Shown here: positions 37,174 to 43,438 of the stretch, one piece after another
Numbering within the stretch: position 1 is the first letter of the stretch
Layout: each line of letters starts with the position of its first letter
DNA from: an uncultured Clostridium sp.
GTDB taxonomy: Bacteria; Bacillota; Clostridia; Lachnospirales; Lachnospiraceae
Assembly (NCBI GenBank): GCA_947644195.1
Contig: CANRZB010000028.1
Coordinates: 1 to 48,118, forward strand
Direction: 5' to 3'
Length of the DNA: 48,118 bases
Program-made: the position numbers and the translations under genes
The notes under the pieces: model-generated
The model's input: the letters and a program-made list of their open reading frames with translations, nothing else
The model's database searches: none
What the model was told of the DNA's origin: nothing

Positions 37174-37275
37174 ACTGTATAGGAAATTGCTCATATAAAA
37201 GTGGTATGCAGTGTAAGCTCAGCGAATTGCACTTTTTACTTTATCGTAAGTTTAGAGAAGATGGAGGATAAGACA

Positions 37276-38940
37276 ATGAAAGGATTTGAAAAGTATCAAA
37301 AAAGTTATTTCATGCCGCCGGAGGAATGCTATGAATGGGTCAAAAAGGATGCCATTGCGAAGGCTCCGGTATGGTGCAGTGTGGATCTGCGGGATGGAAA
37401 TCAGGCATTGATTGAACCTATGGGATTGGAAGAAAAGGTTGAGTTCTTCAAGCTGTTGGTTGAAATTGGGTTCAAGGAGATTGAAGTGGGCTTTCCAGCG
37501 GCTTCCGAGACAGAATTTGTCTTTTTACGGACATTGATAGAGCGAAATCTGATTCCAGATGATGTGACGGTGCAAGTGTTGACGCAGGCGAGAGAGCATA
37601 TTATTCGAAAAACCTTTGAAGCGGTACAGGGTGCGCCAAATGCGATTGTGCATGTCTATAATTCAACTTCGGTAGCACAGAGGGAACAGGTATTCCGCAA
37701 ATCGAAAGATGAGATTAAGCAGATTGCTGTGGATGGTGCGAAGTTATTAAAAGAACTGGCAGCGGAAGTGGAAGGAAATTTCCGTTTTGAATATAGCCCG
37801 GAAAGTTTTCACGGGACGGAAGTGGAATATGCGGTGGAGGTCTGCAATGCAGTTTTGGACGTCTGGGAGCCGCAGGCGGAAGCACCGGCGATCATCAATA
37901 TTCCTTCTACGGTAGAAAATGCGATGCCACATGTGTTTGCGAGCCAGGTAGAGTATGTCAGTAAACATTTGAAATACCGGGACTGCGTGGTATTATCCCT
38001 TCATCCGCATAATGACCGTGGTACGGGTGTTGCTACTGCGGAGCTGGGGGTTCTGGCGGGGGCAGACCGGATCGAGGGAACTTTATTTGGCAATGGAGAG
38101 CGTACCGGAAATATGGACATTGTTACCATGGCAATGAATCTGTATTCGCATGGTGTAGATCCTTGCCTGGATTTCTCTGATATGCAGAGGATTGCGGATG
38201 CCTATGAGCATTTGACTGACATGCAGGTATCTATGCGTCAGCCATATGCTGGCGAACTGGTCTTTACCGCTTTTTCTGGCTCGCATCAGGATGCGATTTC
38301 CAAGGGAATGAACTATCGTGAGGAGAAAAAACAGGATCTTTGGACAGTGCCGTATCTGCCGATTGATCCGAAAGATGTAGGCAGAACTTATGATTCCGAT
38401 GTCATCCGCATTAATAGTCAGTCCGGCAGAGGCGGCGTAGCTTATGTATTAAAACAGAATTTTGGAATTGTGCTTCCTGATCGTATGCGGGAAGAGGTTG
38501 GCTATCTGATGAAAGGGGTATCCGACCGGAAACATGCAGAATTAAAAGCGGAGGATATGTTGCAAATCTTTAATGATACTTACTATAATCCGCCGAAGAT
38601 TTTTGACATTGTGGAATGTCATTTCCAGCAGAAAGACGGTATCCAGACACAGGTATCCATCAAAGAGGGAGATACCGTTACCGTGGTGGAAGCGCAGGGA
38701 AATGGCCGATTAAATGCTGTCAACAATGCGTTGAAAAAACATTTTGGATTGCAGCATACATTAGATGCCTATGAGGAACATTCCCTGTCCAAGAAATCGG
38801 ACGCAAAGGCGATGGCATATGTTGGTGTGACGAAAGATGGACAGAAGTTATATTGGGGAGTAAATTCGGATGAAGATATTCTGAGGGCTTCCATTGATGC
38901 ATTGGTTAGTGCGTTGAATCGAATGATGCAGGCCAGCTAG
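37276..38940 (+). CDS. leuA: 2-isopropylmalate synthase
   Basis: First committed enzyme of leucine synthesis, 554 residues, the long type. The catalytic HMGL-like barrel shows APVWCSVDLRDGNQALIEPM and VLSLHPHNDRGTGVATAELG (metal-binding HPHND), then NGERTGNMDIVTMAMNLYSHG. A C-terminal regulatory domain (about 430-554) binds leucine. GGAGG lies eight bases before the ATG at 37276; earlier in-frame ATGs at 37201 and 37261 are less likely. The T-box leader makes expression depend on leucyl-tRNA shortage. The stop TAG is also the first bases of a MITE-like element. Confidence 0.96.
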   Translation: MKGFEKYQKSYFMPPEECYEWVKKDAIAKAPVWCSVDLRDGNQALIEPMGLEEKVEFFKLLVEIGFKEIEVGFPAASETEFVFLRTLIERNLIPDDVTVQVLTQAREHIIRKTFEAVQGAPNAIVHVYNSTSVAQREQVFRKSKDEIKQIAVDGAKLLKELAAEVEGNFRFEYSPESFHGTEVEYAVEVCNAVLDVWEPQAEAPAIINIPSTVENAMPHVFASQVEYVSKHLKYRDCVVLSLHPHNDRGTGVATAELGVLAGADRIEGTLFGNGERTGNMDIVTMAMNLYSHGVDPCLDFSDMQRIADAYEHLTDMQVSMRQPYAGELVFTAFSGSHQDAISKGMNYREEKKQDLWTVPYLPIDPKDVGRTYDSDVIRINSQSGRGGVAYVLKQNFGIVLPDRMREEVGYLMKGVSDRKHAELKAEDMLQIFNDTYYNPPKIFDIVECHFQQKDGIQTQVSIKEGDTVTVVEAQGNGRLNAVNNALKKHFGLQHTLDAYEEHSLSKKSDAKAMAYVGVTKDGQKLYWGVNSDEDILRASIDALVSALNRMMQAS

Positions 38941-40054: not shown

Positions 40055-41554
40055 ATGGGAAACGTGAATGAGTTGGTACGGGAATTGTTACAGTATGGGG
40101 AAAAAACGGGATTGGTGGATCCGTGGGACCGTACCTATACTTTAAATCGGATTTTGGAAGTAATGCAGCTGGATTCCTATGAAGATCCACAGACGCCGCA
40201 GGAGGATCTGCCGCTGGAAGATATTCTTTCCGGGCTTATGGATGACGCCTACGACAGAGGTGTGTTGCAGGAAAATAGTGTGGCGTACCGGGATTTGTTT
40301 GATACCAAATTAATGGCGGCGCTGGTGCCGGCGCCTCATCAGATAATCCGGGAATTTCAGGAAAAGTATCAGAAATCATCCAGAGAGGCGACGGATTGGT
40401 ATTATCAATTTAGTTGTGATACCGATTATATTCGAAGATATCGGATTGCCAGGGATAGGAAATGGAAAGCGGAAACCGAGTACGGTACGTTGGATGTGAC
40501 GATTAATTTATCTAAACCAGAAAAGGATCCGAAAGCGATTGCAGCGGCAAAAAATGCACCGCAGAGCGCCTATCCGAAATGTCAGTTGTGTATGGAAAAT
40601 GAGGGATATGCCGGGAGACTGAACCATCCGGCGCGCCAGAATCATCGGATCATACCGATAACCATTGATGGAGAAAAATGGGGATTCCAGTATTCTCCGT
40701 ATGTGTATTATAATGAACATTGCATTGTCTTTAATAGCAAGCATACGCCAATGAAAATTGATGCGTCTGCTTTTCGGAAGCTGCTGGATTTTATTCGCCA
40801 ATTTCCACATTATTTTGTGGGTTCCAATGCAGATTTGCCGATTGTGGGAGGTTCTATACTGTCCCATGAGCATTTTCAGGGAGGGCATTATGAATTTGCG
40901 ATGGAGCGTGCTGCGGTAAAGCAGAAAATTACGATTCGTGGATTTGAAGAAATTGAGGCGGGTATTGTGCATTGGCCGATGTCTGTCATTCGTATCTGTC
41001 ATGAAGACCCGGAAAAATTGGTAAATGCAGCGTCCCATATTTTGGACACATGGCGGGGATATACGGATGAAAAATCCTTTATTTTTGCAGAGACAGAGGG
41101 AGAAGCACATAATACGATTACGCCAATTGCCAGAATGAGAAATGGCAAGTATGAGCTAGATCTGGTACTGCGGAATAATATTACGACAGAGGAATATCCG
41201 CTGGGGGTATATCACCCTCATCAGGAATTACATCATATCAAGAAGGAGAATATTGGACTAATTGAGGTTATGGGATTAGCCGTCCTACCGGCAAGACTGA
41301 AAGGTGAGATGGAACGTCTGGCGGAGTATATTGTCGAGGGAAAAGAGATTCGGTCAGATGAAGAATTAGAAAAACATGCGGACTGGGTGGAGGCATTTAT
41401 TCAGAAATATGATGAGATTAATGCAGAAAACGTAGAACAAATCTTGCAGGATGAGATCGGAATTGTATTTCAGCAGGTTTTGGAGCATGCCGGTGTTTAC
41501 AAAAATGATGAGGCTGGAATGGAAGGCTTTTTGCGATTTGTAGAAGCATTATAA
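40055..41554 (+). CDS. galT: UDP-glucose-hexose-1-phosphate uridylyltransferase (class II GalT)
   Basis: Leloir-pathway enzyme, 499 residues, the size of the Firmicute class II form. It swaps galactose-1-phosphate with UDP-glucose. It shows WYYQFSCDTDYIRRYRIARD, YPKCQLCMENEGY, SPYVYYNEHCIVFN and ILSHEHFQGGHYEF with the active-site His region. AAGGAGG precedes the ATG. galK and galE are not beside it. It would handle galactose released by the GH36 enzyme at 7802. Confidence 0.95.
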   Translation: MGNVNELVRELLQYGEKTGLVDPWDRTYTLNRILEVMQLDSYEDPQTPQEDLPLEDILSGLMDDAYDRGVLQENSVAYRDLFDTKLMAALVPAPHQIIREFQEKYQKSSREATDWYYQFSCDTDYIRRYRIARDRKWKAETEYGTLDVTINLSKPEKDPKAIAAAKNAPQSAYPKCQLCMENEGYAGRLNHPARQNHRIIPITIDGEKWGFQYSPYVYYNEHCIVFNSKHTPMKIDASAFRKLLDFIRQFPHYFVGSNADLPIVGGSILSHEHFQGGHYEFAMERAAVKQKITIRGFEEIEAGIVHWPMSVIRICHEDPEKLVNAASHILDTWRGYTDEKSFIFAETEGEAHNTITPIARMRNGKYELDLVLRNNITTEEYPLGVYHPHQELHHIKKENIGLIEVMGLAVLPARLKGEMERLAEYIVEGKEIRSDEELEKHADWVEAFIQKYDEINAENVEQILQDEIGIVFQQVLEHAGVYKNDEAGMEGFLRFVEAL

Positions 41555-41563
41555 AAATAAATA

Positions 41564-41585
41564 ATGCGAGAAAAAAATCCCGCAT
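41564..41585 (-). terminator. Possible hairpin after galT
   Basis: ATGCG (41564-41568) pairs with CGCAT (41581-41585) plus flanking G/C bases; the T-rich tail lies on the minus-strand side only, so it is a weak terminator candidate. Confidence 0.3.
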
Positions 41586-41673
41586 CTAATACAAAACTAT
41601 AGCATATCCCATAATACAAGTCTAGTATTTTTTAAGCGAGTTGATAGAATGATATTGCCGGCAAAAAAATAAC

Positions 41674-41845
41674 GGGAGGTAGTAGTGTGAAAAATAATGC
41701 TGATGCAATTATTTTTCACACATAAACGTAGTTTATGTTGGCTATTTGTGCCGGAGCGTCACAAATAAGCCTTGATGGCAGATGAGAAATCGCCTGCGCG
41801 AATTTCTCATCGCCCCGTCGCATACGCTCCGGAATGGAGAATATC
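41674..41845 (+). promoter_or_regulatory. Structured leader RNA with pseudoknot before a methyltransferase gene
   Basis: Seen in order: GGGAGG (41674-41679) and a 12-codon frame from GTG 41687 to TAA 41725 lying inside a perfect 14-base stem (41685-41698 with 41708-41721); hairpin ATTTGTG/CACAAAT (41744-41750, 41760-41766) whose nine-base loop CCGGAGCGT (41751-41759) is perfectly complementary to ACGCTCCGG (41824-41832); hairpin GATGAGAAAT/ATTTCTCATC (41781-41790, 41802-41811). The pseudoknot partner ends three bases before GGAG, the ribosome site for the ATG at 41846. This is the layout of a translational riboregulator; ligand or partner unknown. A small mobile palindrome is the alternative. 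Confidence 0.6.
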
Positions 41846-42607
41846 ATGAAATCAATAGGAAGTGACTGGTATCGAAAGATATGGAGTCTGGATATTATGG
41901 AGATGTCCTGGGTGGAGGATACCGAGAGACAGGTAGATTTTCTGGTGGATTGTCTGGAGTTAAAAGGGGGGGAGAGAATCCTCGACCTGGCATGTGGATT
42001 CGGCAGACATTCGATTGCATTGGCAGAACGAGGATTTTCCGTGGTTGGTGTCGACATTACGAGAGATTACATTGCGTATGCGGATCGTATTGCAAAGGAG
42101 AAACATTTAGATGCGGAGTTTCTTTTGGCAGATATTCGGGATTTATCTTTTGCAGAAGAATTTGATGTAGTCATTAATATGGGGGATGGTGCGATTGGTT
42201 ATCTCGAAAATGAAGAAGAAAACTTCAAGATTTTTGATGTGATTGCCAAGGCATTGAGGCCGGGAGGCAAACATTTCATGGATATCATGAATGGAGATTA
42301 TGCGGAGCATCATTTTCCTTGCCAACTTTGGGATGCAGGAGAAAAATGTCTCACTTTGTCCAAGTTTGAATGGGACGCAGAAACCAGAACCATGTTGTAT
42401 GGACAGACAGATTATCTCTATGGTCAGGTATGGGAAAAGCCTGTAATTGACCAGGGAAATCCGACACGTTTATATGCTTTGTCAGAGCTTGAGATCATTC
42501 TACACGAAAGGGGATTGGCAATACAGGACAGTTTTTCTGATTTTACCGGAAAAGTGTCTTCGGCGGATGGAATACAGTTGTTGGTATCTTCCCAGAAATG
42601 TGGATAG
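41846..42607 (+). CDS. Class I SAM-dependent methyltransferase
   Basis: A 253-residue methyltransferase. Motif I ERILDLACGFGRHSIALAERG, motif II VVGVDITRDYI, and a post-motif FDVVINMGDGAIGYLENEEE. It resembles small-molecule methyltransferases of unknown target. I chose ATG 41846, with GGAG six bases before it; ATG 41834 overlaps that ribosome site. The complex leader just upstream suggests translational control. The next methyltransferase gene follows on the same strand. Confidence 0.82.
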   Translation: MKSIGSDWYRKIWSLDIMEMSWVEDTERQVDFLVDCLELKGGERILDLACGFGRHSIALAERGFSVVGVDITRDYIAYADRIAKEKHLDAEFLLADIRDLSFAEEFDVVINMGDGAIGYLENEEENFKIFDVIAKALRPGGKHFMDIMNGDYAEHHFPCQLWDAGEKCLTLSKFEWDAETRTMLYGQTDYLYGQVWEKPVIDQGNPTRLYALSELEIILHERGLAIQDSFSDFTGKVSSADGIQLLVSSQKCG

Positions 42608-42691
42608 AAATTAAGAATGACAAAAGCTGGAGGACTTGGAATTAACAGAATTTATTTGAGAAGGAACGTATCGGAAAGGAGGAGGAACACC

Positions 42692-43438
42692 ACGGAAGAA
42701 TCGGAGAAAATACAGAGAGCGAAGGAAAGCTTTGAAGCAATACTATTAAATGATAAGTACAGTGATATCATTGAGGATGATGAACATCGGTCGCTATTGC
42801 TTGAGATGCTGCCATTCAAGATAGGAGATACGATTTTAGATGTTGGTACAGGAGCTGGATATCTGGCGTTTCCGATTGCGCAGGCAAACCCTGACTGTGA
42901 GGTCATTGGCCTGGACATTGCGGATCGAGTAATTCAGCAGAATCAGGTCCGGCAGGAAAAAGAACAAATAGATAATCTTCGTTTTTGTTCCTTTGATGGA
43001 AAGACATATCCATTTAATGCCAATAGCATGAATGTGATTTTGTCACGATATGCGTTTCATCATTTTCCTAATGTAGCAATGACTGTAAAACAGTGGATGG
43101 AAATGCTCTGTGAAGATGGGAAAATTTTGATTTCGGATCCGATTAGAAATGAGCGGGATGAACGAAGAATCATTGATCAGTTTATGGAGATCAAGGGGGA
43201 TGGGCATATTGGTTTTTATACAAAACAAGAATTGTTAAATCTTTTTGCGGAATATGGTATGCGGCAGTGGCAAATGGAAATTACTGTAATGAGTTTTCCT
43301 TTTCCGAAGAAGCAAGAGTATCTGGATCTATTTGATACATTGTGTGAGGAGGAAAAGGCAATGTATGAGATTACAGAACGGGATGGCATAATTTGGGTTG
43401 GACGTATTGAGGTGGCAAATCTGTTGCTTGGGAAATGA
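42692..43438 (+). CDS. Class I SAM-dependent methyltransferase, probable ACG start
   Basis: A methyltransferase of about 249 residues: DTILDVGTGAGYLAFPIAQ (motif I), EVIGLDIADRVIQ (motif II), then MNVILSRYAFHHFP and a C-terminal IIWVGRIEV. The target is unknown. The frame is open from ATG 42617, but that ATG has no ribosome site. The excellent AAAGGAGGAGG at 42675-42685 is followed, six bases on, by ACG (42692) in frame. Either ACG is used as start or an ATG mutated. It follows the other methyltransferase after about 85 bases; the two may form an operon. Confidence 0.8.
   Translation, partial: TEESEKIQRAKESFEAILLNDKYSDIIEDDEHRSLLLEMLPFKIGDTILDVGTGAGYLAFPIAQANPDCEVIGLDIADRVIQQNQVRQEKEQIDNLRFCSFDGKTYPFNANSMNVILSRYAFHHFPNVAMTVKQWMEMLCEDGKILISDPIRNERDERRIIDQFMEIKGDGHIGFYTKQELLNLFAEYGMRQWQMEITVMSFPFPKKQEYLDLFDTLCEEEKAMYEITERDGIIWVGRIEVANLLLGK

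Follow-up and report, generated by a model that had tools for sequence, protein, structure and literature searches.

The leader of the methyltransferase gene that starts at position 41846 raises the question of what kind of element places a strongly folded RNA directly against a ribosome-binding site. Over 211 bases (41670-41880), the predicted fold reaches -71 kcal/mol, compared with -50.0 ± 4.3 kcal/mol in 200 shuffles (z -4.8). The parts of this leader and the gene behind it are given here by their positions in the window, the whole stretch of 48,118 nucleotides that was analysed.

41674-41684, plus strand: 5′ flank, with a Shine-Dalgarno-like GGGAGG (41674-41679) and a spacer ending in TA that abuts the element.
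41685-41843, plus strand: whole repeated element, comprising hairpins A, B, C and D, the pseudoknot partner, the Shine-Dalgarno and the 3′ terminus TA.
41685-41721, plus strand: hairpin A (GTGTGAAAAATAAT / ATTATTTTTCACAC), which holds the start of a 12-codon frame and has a stem that pairs and covaries.
41722-41736, plus strand: hairpin B (ATAAAC-GTA-GTTTAT), an optional module placed from the fold.
41740-41771, plus strand: hairpin C, with the nine-base loop CCGGAGCGT at 41751-41759.
41777-41814, plus strand: hairpin D (GGC-A-GATGAGAAAT...ATTTCTCATC-GCC), with two-sided changes in 13 of 16 pairs over 63 sequences.
41824-41832, plus strand: ACGCTCCGG, pseudoknot partner and perfect nine-base reverse complement of the loop in hairpin C.
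41836-41839, plus strand: Shine-Dalgarno GGAG preceding ATG 41846, which could alternatively pair with CTCC at 41827-41830.
41846-42607, plus strand: SAM-dependent methyltransferase gene (Pfam Methyltransf_25/31).

A preliminary description of this locus had reported that the loop at 41751-41759 is complementary at nine of nine positions to 41824-41832, three bases before the GGAG used by ATG 41846. Direct reading confirms this, the three bases that separate ACGCTCCGG from GGAG being AAT, and the two further strong hairpins said to surround hairpin C are present at 41685-41721 and 41777-41814. The 12-codon frame with a GGGAGG of its own also exists: it is a GTG frame that starts at 41687 inside hairpin A, behind GGGAGG 41674-41679, but this GGGAGG sits in the flank, outside the repeated unit of 159 bases (41685-41843). 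Elsewhere in the genus (27 other genomes), the methyltransferase has no match at E ≤ 1e-20. Directly behind it, at 42617-43438, lies a further methyltransferase gene that differs from the first.

We searched for relatives of this leader and found it to be one member of a dispersed family. The genome of origin contains seven other strong places on other contigs (sequence search, E ≤ 1e-12), with identities of 77-97%, the best copy being 97% identical over 161 bases. A covariance model built from 63 relatives gave 12 matches at E ≤ 1e-4 in this genome, which are all 12 candidates scored. Across the genus, 17 of 28 genomes, the genome of origin included, hold element matches, and two of them are element-rich (G010 with 35 matches and G023 with 30). 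Under stricter filters, by which weak matches are lost, the element was recovered in 43 of 299 genomes of the family (43 of 298 genera) and in 4 of 391 genomes of a class-wide sample (E ≤ 1e-6), all four belonging to the same family. A pattern scan of named genomes returned at least 119 stretches. Among the matches listed are many records titled Lachnospiraceae, Roseburia, Eisenbergiella, Acetatifactor or Lachnospira, together with Clostridiales, Eubacteriales and a few further names. In the genomes searched, the element falls within one family, which the record titles indicate to be Lachnospiraceae. Typical copies were also seen in three contigs labelled Gastranaerophilales or Bacteroides (L123, L146 and L124), which are probably misbinned metagenome contigs. 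Carriage by phages or plasmids was considered and set aside: one exact pattern had no match in viral contigs, and two blastn searches gave no match in plasmids and phages at the sensitivity used.

The family corresponds to no known RNA class in Rfam, as the preliminary description had supposed. A search of the whole window against Rfam 15 returned only a distant T-box, a permissive search of 41540-41900 gave six implausible matches far below the cut-offs, and no gathering match was obtained in 20 sources that contain relatives. The T-box leader (RF00230, 36894-37149, 101.9 bits) is an ordinary one, and the frame downstream of it (37201-38940) reads from its translation as a 2-isopropylmalate synthase. 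In the open-licence literature on bacterial repeats, MITEs and Lachnospiraceae, we found no description of this element by title or abstract opening.

The proposed structure is supported by covariation. Among 109 relatives selected on hairpin C, 91 have a partner that matches the loop at seven of seven positions 38-130 bases downstream, a level reached by shuffled loops in 8.4% of 2159 trials. A partner of at least six of seven is found in 106 of the 109 copies, three being without a partner of at least six pairs, and it is likewise found for 67% of shuffled loops; only the seven-of-seven figure is thus telling. In 63 distinct sequences, 95.5% of the cells of the proposed structure are paired, compared with 87.3% after shuffling and 38-45% when the sequences are slid, and two-sided changes occur in 21 of 34 pairs. 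For the pseudoknot helix, 98.4% of the cells are paired, with two-sided changes in three of nine pairs, and RNAalifold, run without a given structure, predicted this helix in place of hairpin C. Compensatory changes, whose lack the preliminary description had named as a refutation, do occur between loop and partner; they mostly distinguish two subfamilies, which carry CGGAGCG with CGCTCCG and CTGAGCG with CGCTCAG, respectively. As most of the double changes in the pseudoknot separate these two subfamilies, the independent events are few; a small number of others, among them GGAGCGC with GCGCTCC and GAAGCG with CGCTTC, look independent. Mismatches also occur: two of the nine pairs are affected, in four and five of the 63 sequences, and the A of the usual partner is retained in four copies whose loop has GCGC. 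The hairpin A stem is paired, with covariation, in 61 distinct pairs of arms. Among the 167 copies whose 5′ end was recognised, the spacing of hairpin A leaves no room for hairpin B in 128. The base of hairpin D, GGC/GCC in the window copy, reads CCG/CGG in L069, L133 and L164 with the bulged A kept (read by eye), which is a compensatory swap. The sequence of hairpin C, loop included, is conserved beyond what pairing would require, as seen from invariant columns.

Position and orientation of the copies are fixed: they stand on the sense strand at gene starts. The cleanest set for this purpose was selected on the hairpin C pattern only and comprises 122 distinct matches, 13 of which were left out for having too little downstream sequence. 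In 88 of the 109 usable copies, a gene starts 8-31 bases past the partner, in 65 of them at exactly 14 bases. The corresponding counts in a larger set are 176 of 207 and 137; its 79 newly counted copies come mostly from a model that contains the Shine-Dalgarno and the ATG, and the hairpin-C-only figure is therefore the cleaner one. For the larger set, 95 matches lacking a recognisable loop motif, 46 duplicates and five running off had been dropped to leave 243, of which 28 fell outside the allowed partner distance. Random positions of the same loci gave a gene start in 1122 of 6540 cases, and the antisense direction in 6 of 143. A long frame on the same strand ends within about 140 bases upstream of the copy in 149 of 198 cases. 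The genes thus headed have no shared function in the 148 downstream proteins submitted to Pfam (of 176 distinct ones): they contain 163 Pfam families, the commonest of which is found in only four proteins, and the idea of a regulon or single pathway was rejected on this count. In the genome of origin, the hosts include rsmG, a POR-domain gene (called iorB), a homocysteine methyltransferase, a GntR regulator, a sigma factor and a response regulator, and a second response regulator, read from its translation, stands behind the L004 copy.

We compared the ends of the element and their surroundings. The 5′ consensus is GNNTGAAAAAT. At the 3′ end the element reads GGAATGGRGATTA, with two bases between it and the ATG, the Shine-Dalgarno consensus at this end being GGAGATTA. 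The end consensuses GNNTGAAAAAT and GGAGATTA are no inverted copies of each other, so that terminal inverted repeats were not found. The flank directly upstream resembles a Shine-Dalgarno followed by TA: GGAG, GAGG or AGGA occurs at -18 to -3 in 61 of 92 junctions, compared with 406 of 2574 control stretches further upstream. A Shine-Dalgarno-like motif is hence present on both sides of the element. The flank also resembles the 3′ end of the same copy more than shuffled pairs do (at newer loci, 332 matches over eight bases versus 305 ± 7.5), the final eight bases being identical in 23 of 153 copies over all loci; examples are AAAAGGTGAATA on both sides in L142 and AACGGAGGTTA in L409. A stricter test shuffled within genome and subfamily and dropped flanks that resemble old element ends, which kept 127 of the 153 copies, 98 of them in shufflable groups. 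It left a weak excess (471 versus 457 ± 6.4 over eight bases), with p values of 0.03, 0.02, 0.007 and 0.02 for 6, 8, 11 and 12 bases. Because the direct-repeat signal weakens in this way, target duplication is unproven, and the likeness of flank and 3′ end reflects either a choice of target guided by homology or, in a minority of copies, duplication of the target.

The element is absent before the orthologous genes in most relatives examined. In a comparison that took up to 230 upstream bases per locus, a full copy stood upstream of iorB at one of nine genus loci (with matches at 11 places), of a MetH-like gene at one of nine (matches at 12 places), of rsmG at one of 23 and of a putative O-acetylhomoserine sulfhydrylase, named from its translation, at one of five. 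Copies before unrelated genes, combined with orthologs that mostly lack the element, make it look mobile. A base-exact empty site was not found among relatives that are only about 68-87% alike, these being too distant or lacking the locus. Not every shared site is recent. The rsmG gene of G083, from another genus, also has a copy, and one insertion is common to G176 and G326, the eroded G326 copy still pairing loop and partner (by eye); in a third species, G325, an ordinary start occupies this site next to a different upstream gene. Remnants that resemble the 3′ end of the element alone were observed before rsmG in L246 (G023) and before the sulfhydrylase in L465 (G022), suggesting partial loss that left the new Shine-Dalgarno in place. 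A Y1 (RAYT) transposase was rejected as the mobiliser, as its genes do not track the element across genomes: Y1_Tnp was not found in the draft assemblies of element-bearing G000, G007, G016 and G022, and such genes number six in G021, which has no element match, three in element-rich G010 and one, a weak one, in G023.

With its CUCC or CUCA, the partner strand has two possible pairing targets, the hairpin C loop and the Shine-Dalgarno downstream. A two-state CTCC/GGAG switch with a single register in all copies was rejected: this pairing shows no covariation and reaches 82.9%, compared with 83.1% after shuffling. When each subfamily is given its own register, a Shine-Dalgarno helix of at least four pairs forms in 87% and 70% of copies with their own tails and in 49% and 20% with swapped tails; shuffling tails inside a subfamily has no effect. 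The register thus differs by subfamily in such a way that pairing of partner and Shine-Dalgarno stays possible, and together with the anti-Shine-Dalgarno strand this is essentially one coordinated difference. The loop-partner duplex is by far the stronger, predicted at -16.9 and -14.2 kcal/mol, with the partner/Shine-Dalgarno pairing at -4.9 and -3.6 kcal/mol, values that do not include a pseudoknot penalty.

We propose, with a probability of roughly 70%, that the leader is a copy of a non-autonomous mobile element, one that settles at ribosome-binding sites and brings with it a pseudoknotted leader and a Shine-Dalgarno to replace the original. The insertion point would lie behind the native Shine-Dalgarno of a gene and ahead of the start codon; the 3′ end of the element would then provide a new Shine-Dalgarno at the right distance from the ATG. 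The transcript is predicted to fold into three or four hairpins, with the hairpin C loop pairing to a strand separated from the new Shine-Dalgarno by three bases. The pseudoknot may in this way hold the anti-Shine-Dalgarno strand (CUCC or CUCA) off the Shine-Dalgarno, by which the host gene would stay translatable or become tunable. Most simply, the partner would normally be held in the pseudoknot and the Shine-Dalgarno left free, so that an insertion would not silence the gene. Both the movement and the translational effect of the element are inferred.

The 5′ end suggests a more tentative extension. ATG, GTG or TTG stands at element positions 3-5 in 145 of 167 copies (no start codon in the other 22), the first base of this DTG codon varying among G, T and A and being C in one of the 167. 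The 12-codon frame of the window copy is this leader frame, which begins with the spacing expected of a real start codon. The element might thus be a mobile cassette for translation control, directed to ribosome-binding sites and combining leader frame and pseudoknot, a version we regard as possible but rather doubtful. Its 5′ end, NN-DTG-AAAAAT at real start-codon spacing, would take over the gene's own Shine-Dalgarno and have the leader frame translated, while the 3′ end would give the gene a second Shine-Dalgarno beside the pseudoknot; ribosomes on the leader would open hairpins A and C and thereby determine the state of the pseudoknot. If this is true, any gene could be converted to such control by a single insertion. 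A conserved leader peptide was rejected, as the two hairpin A types encode different peptides. A frame that starts internally at ATGGCAGA is found about equally often in each of the three possible registers with the gene (43, 40 and 40).

The main competitor is an ordinary parasitic structured repeat of the BOX, bcr or MITE kind, whose hairpins and pseudoknot would serve DNA-level movement only, with no role in translation; its place at ribosome sites would result from target preference and from the survival of harmless insertions. We consider this unlikely, though a serious contender. Closely similar dispersed copies before unrelated genes would be expected of such a repeat, as would its modular decay, with modules A, B or D absent or shortened in some copies, and the existence of tandem copies, in which GGAGATTA directly abuts GTGTGAAAAAT. 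Against it, the older, eroded G326 copy keeps its loop-partner pairing, the Shine-Dalgarno register differs together with the anti-Shine-Dalgarno strand between subfamilies, albeit as one coordinated difference, and pneumococcal repeats are over-represented between convergent genes (PMC3049150), whereas this family is tied to sense-strand starts. A spreading operator, in which one trans-acting protein or small RNA reads the hairpin C loop and co-regulates many unrelated genes, appears improbable. It would account for the excess constancy of hairpin C and for the many copies in G010 and G023, but recent common descent also explains this constancy, the pattern-scan copies had been selected on hairpin C itself, and there is no candidate factor and no common function among the hosted genes.

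The preliminary description had taken the loop-partner match for the plan of a translational riboswitch or thermosensor and had guessed at a SAM-related or substrate ligand that controls the methyltransferase. A pseudoknot that adjoins the Shine-Dalgarno, a strong fold and a methyltransferase gene downstream all fit a sensor of SAM, SAH or a substrate. Yet similar copies precede response regulators, rsmG, the POR-domain gene, a sigma factor and others, no single pathway emerges among the downstream genes, no Rfam class matches, and orthologous genes in most relatives examined do without the element. As there is no regulon, we regard a riboswitch as very improbable. A palindrome scattered away from gene starts had been named as what would speak against that plan; the sequence is indeed dispersed and apparently mobile, but its copies sit at gene starts. 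The structure first noticed is real and striking, and the kind of explanation offered for it was wrong: a leader RNA that covaries well need not be a riboswitch.

In pseudoknotted translational riboswitches of the SAM-II and preQ1-II type, a hairpin loop pairs with a strand close to the Shine-Dalgarno. The present element has this pairing in common with them and differs in that its Shine-Dalgarno lies just outside the pseudoknot, its hosts are unrelated, its copies are dispersed and Rfam has no match for it. Compared with MITEs, it likewise has many dispersed copies that are absent from orthologous genes (rather than from exact sites) in relatives, but no terminal inverted repeats. Dispersed structured repeats are usually viewed as intergenic passengers; the present element instead either targets ribosome-binding sites or is retained nowhere else. 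Should it indeed move and tune translation, its insertion would offer gut Lachnospiraceae a means of rewiring translation across many genes.

Among repeats described in other bacteria, bcr repeats of the Bacillus cereus group are 100-400 bp long, have mobile features, with abundant ones called MITE-like, and often lie within UTRs or between operon genes (PMC6542083, PMC3446304). Our element shares with them a dispersed, structured nature and differs in host group and in their motif TTTAT; in the parts of these descriptions on which the comparison rests, neither a fixed distance to the start codon nor a loop-partner pseudoknot beside the Shine-Dalgarno appears. The BOX, RUP and SPRITE repeats of Streptococcus pneumoniae are modular, dispersed and structured, and they can be transcribed as operon extensions and carry small open frames (PMC3049150); they differ in being over-represented between convergent genes, the present family being tied to start codons. 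REP sequences are palindromic, bear a conserved tag at one end and occur singly and in arrays; they have been hypothesised to be miniature transposons (PMC3733652). Their GTAG (or CGTC) tag is not conserved in the present element, where G is found at -3 in 17 of 92 junctions, and, as noted above, Y1 transposase genes do not track it. Dispersal and structure are thus what the element has in common with bcr, BOX and REP repeats as described there, while its fixed place at the start codon and its pseudoknot set it apart from them (PMC6542083, PMC3446304, PMC3049150, PMC3733652).

We finally note two shrunken copies, at L112:3458-3465 on the plus strand and in L138 on the minus strand, in which hairpin D is reduced and hairpin A is missing. 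Both retain hairpin C together with a perfect partner, hinting that these two parts form the core of the element.
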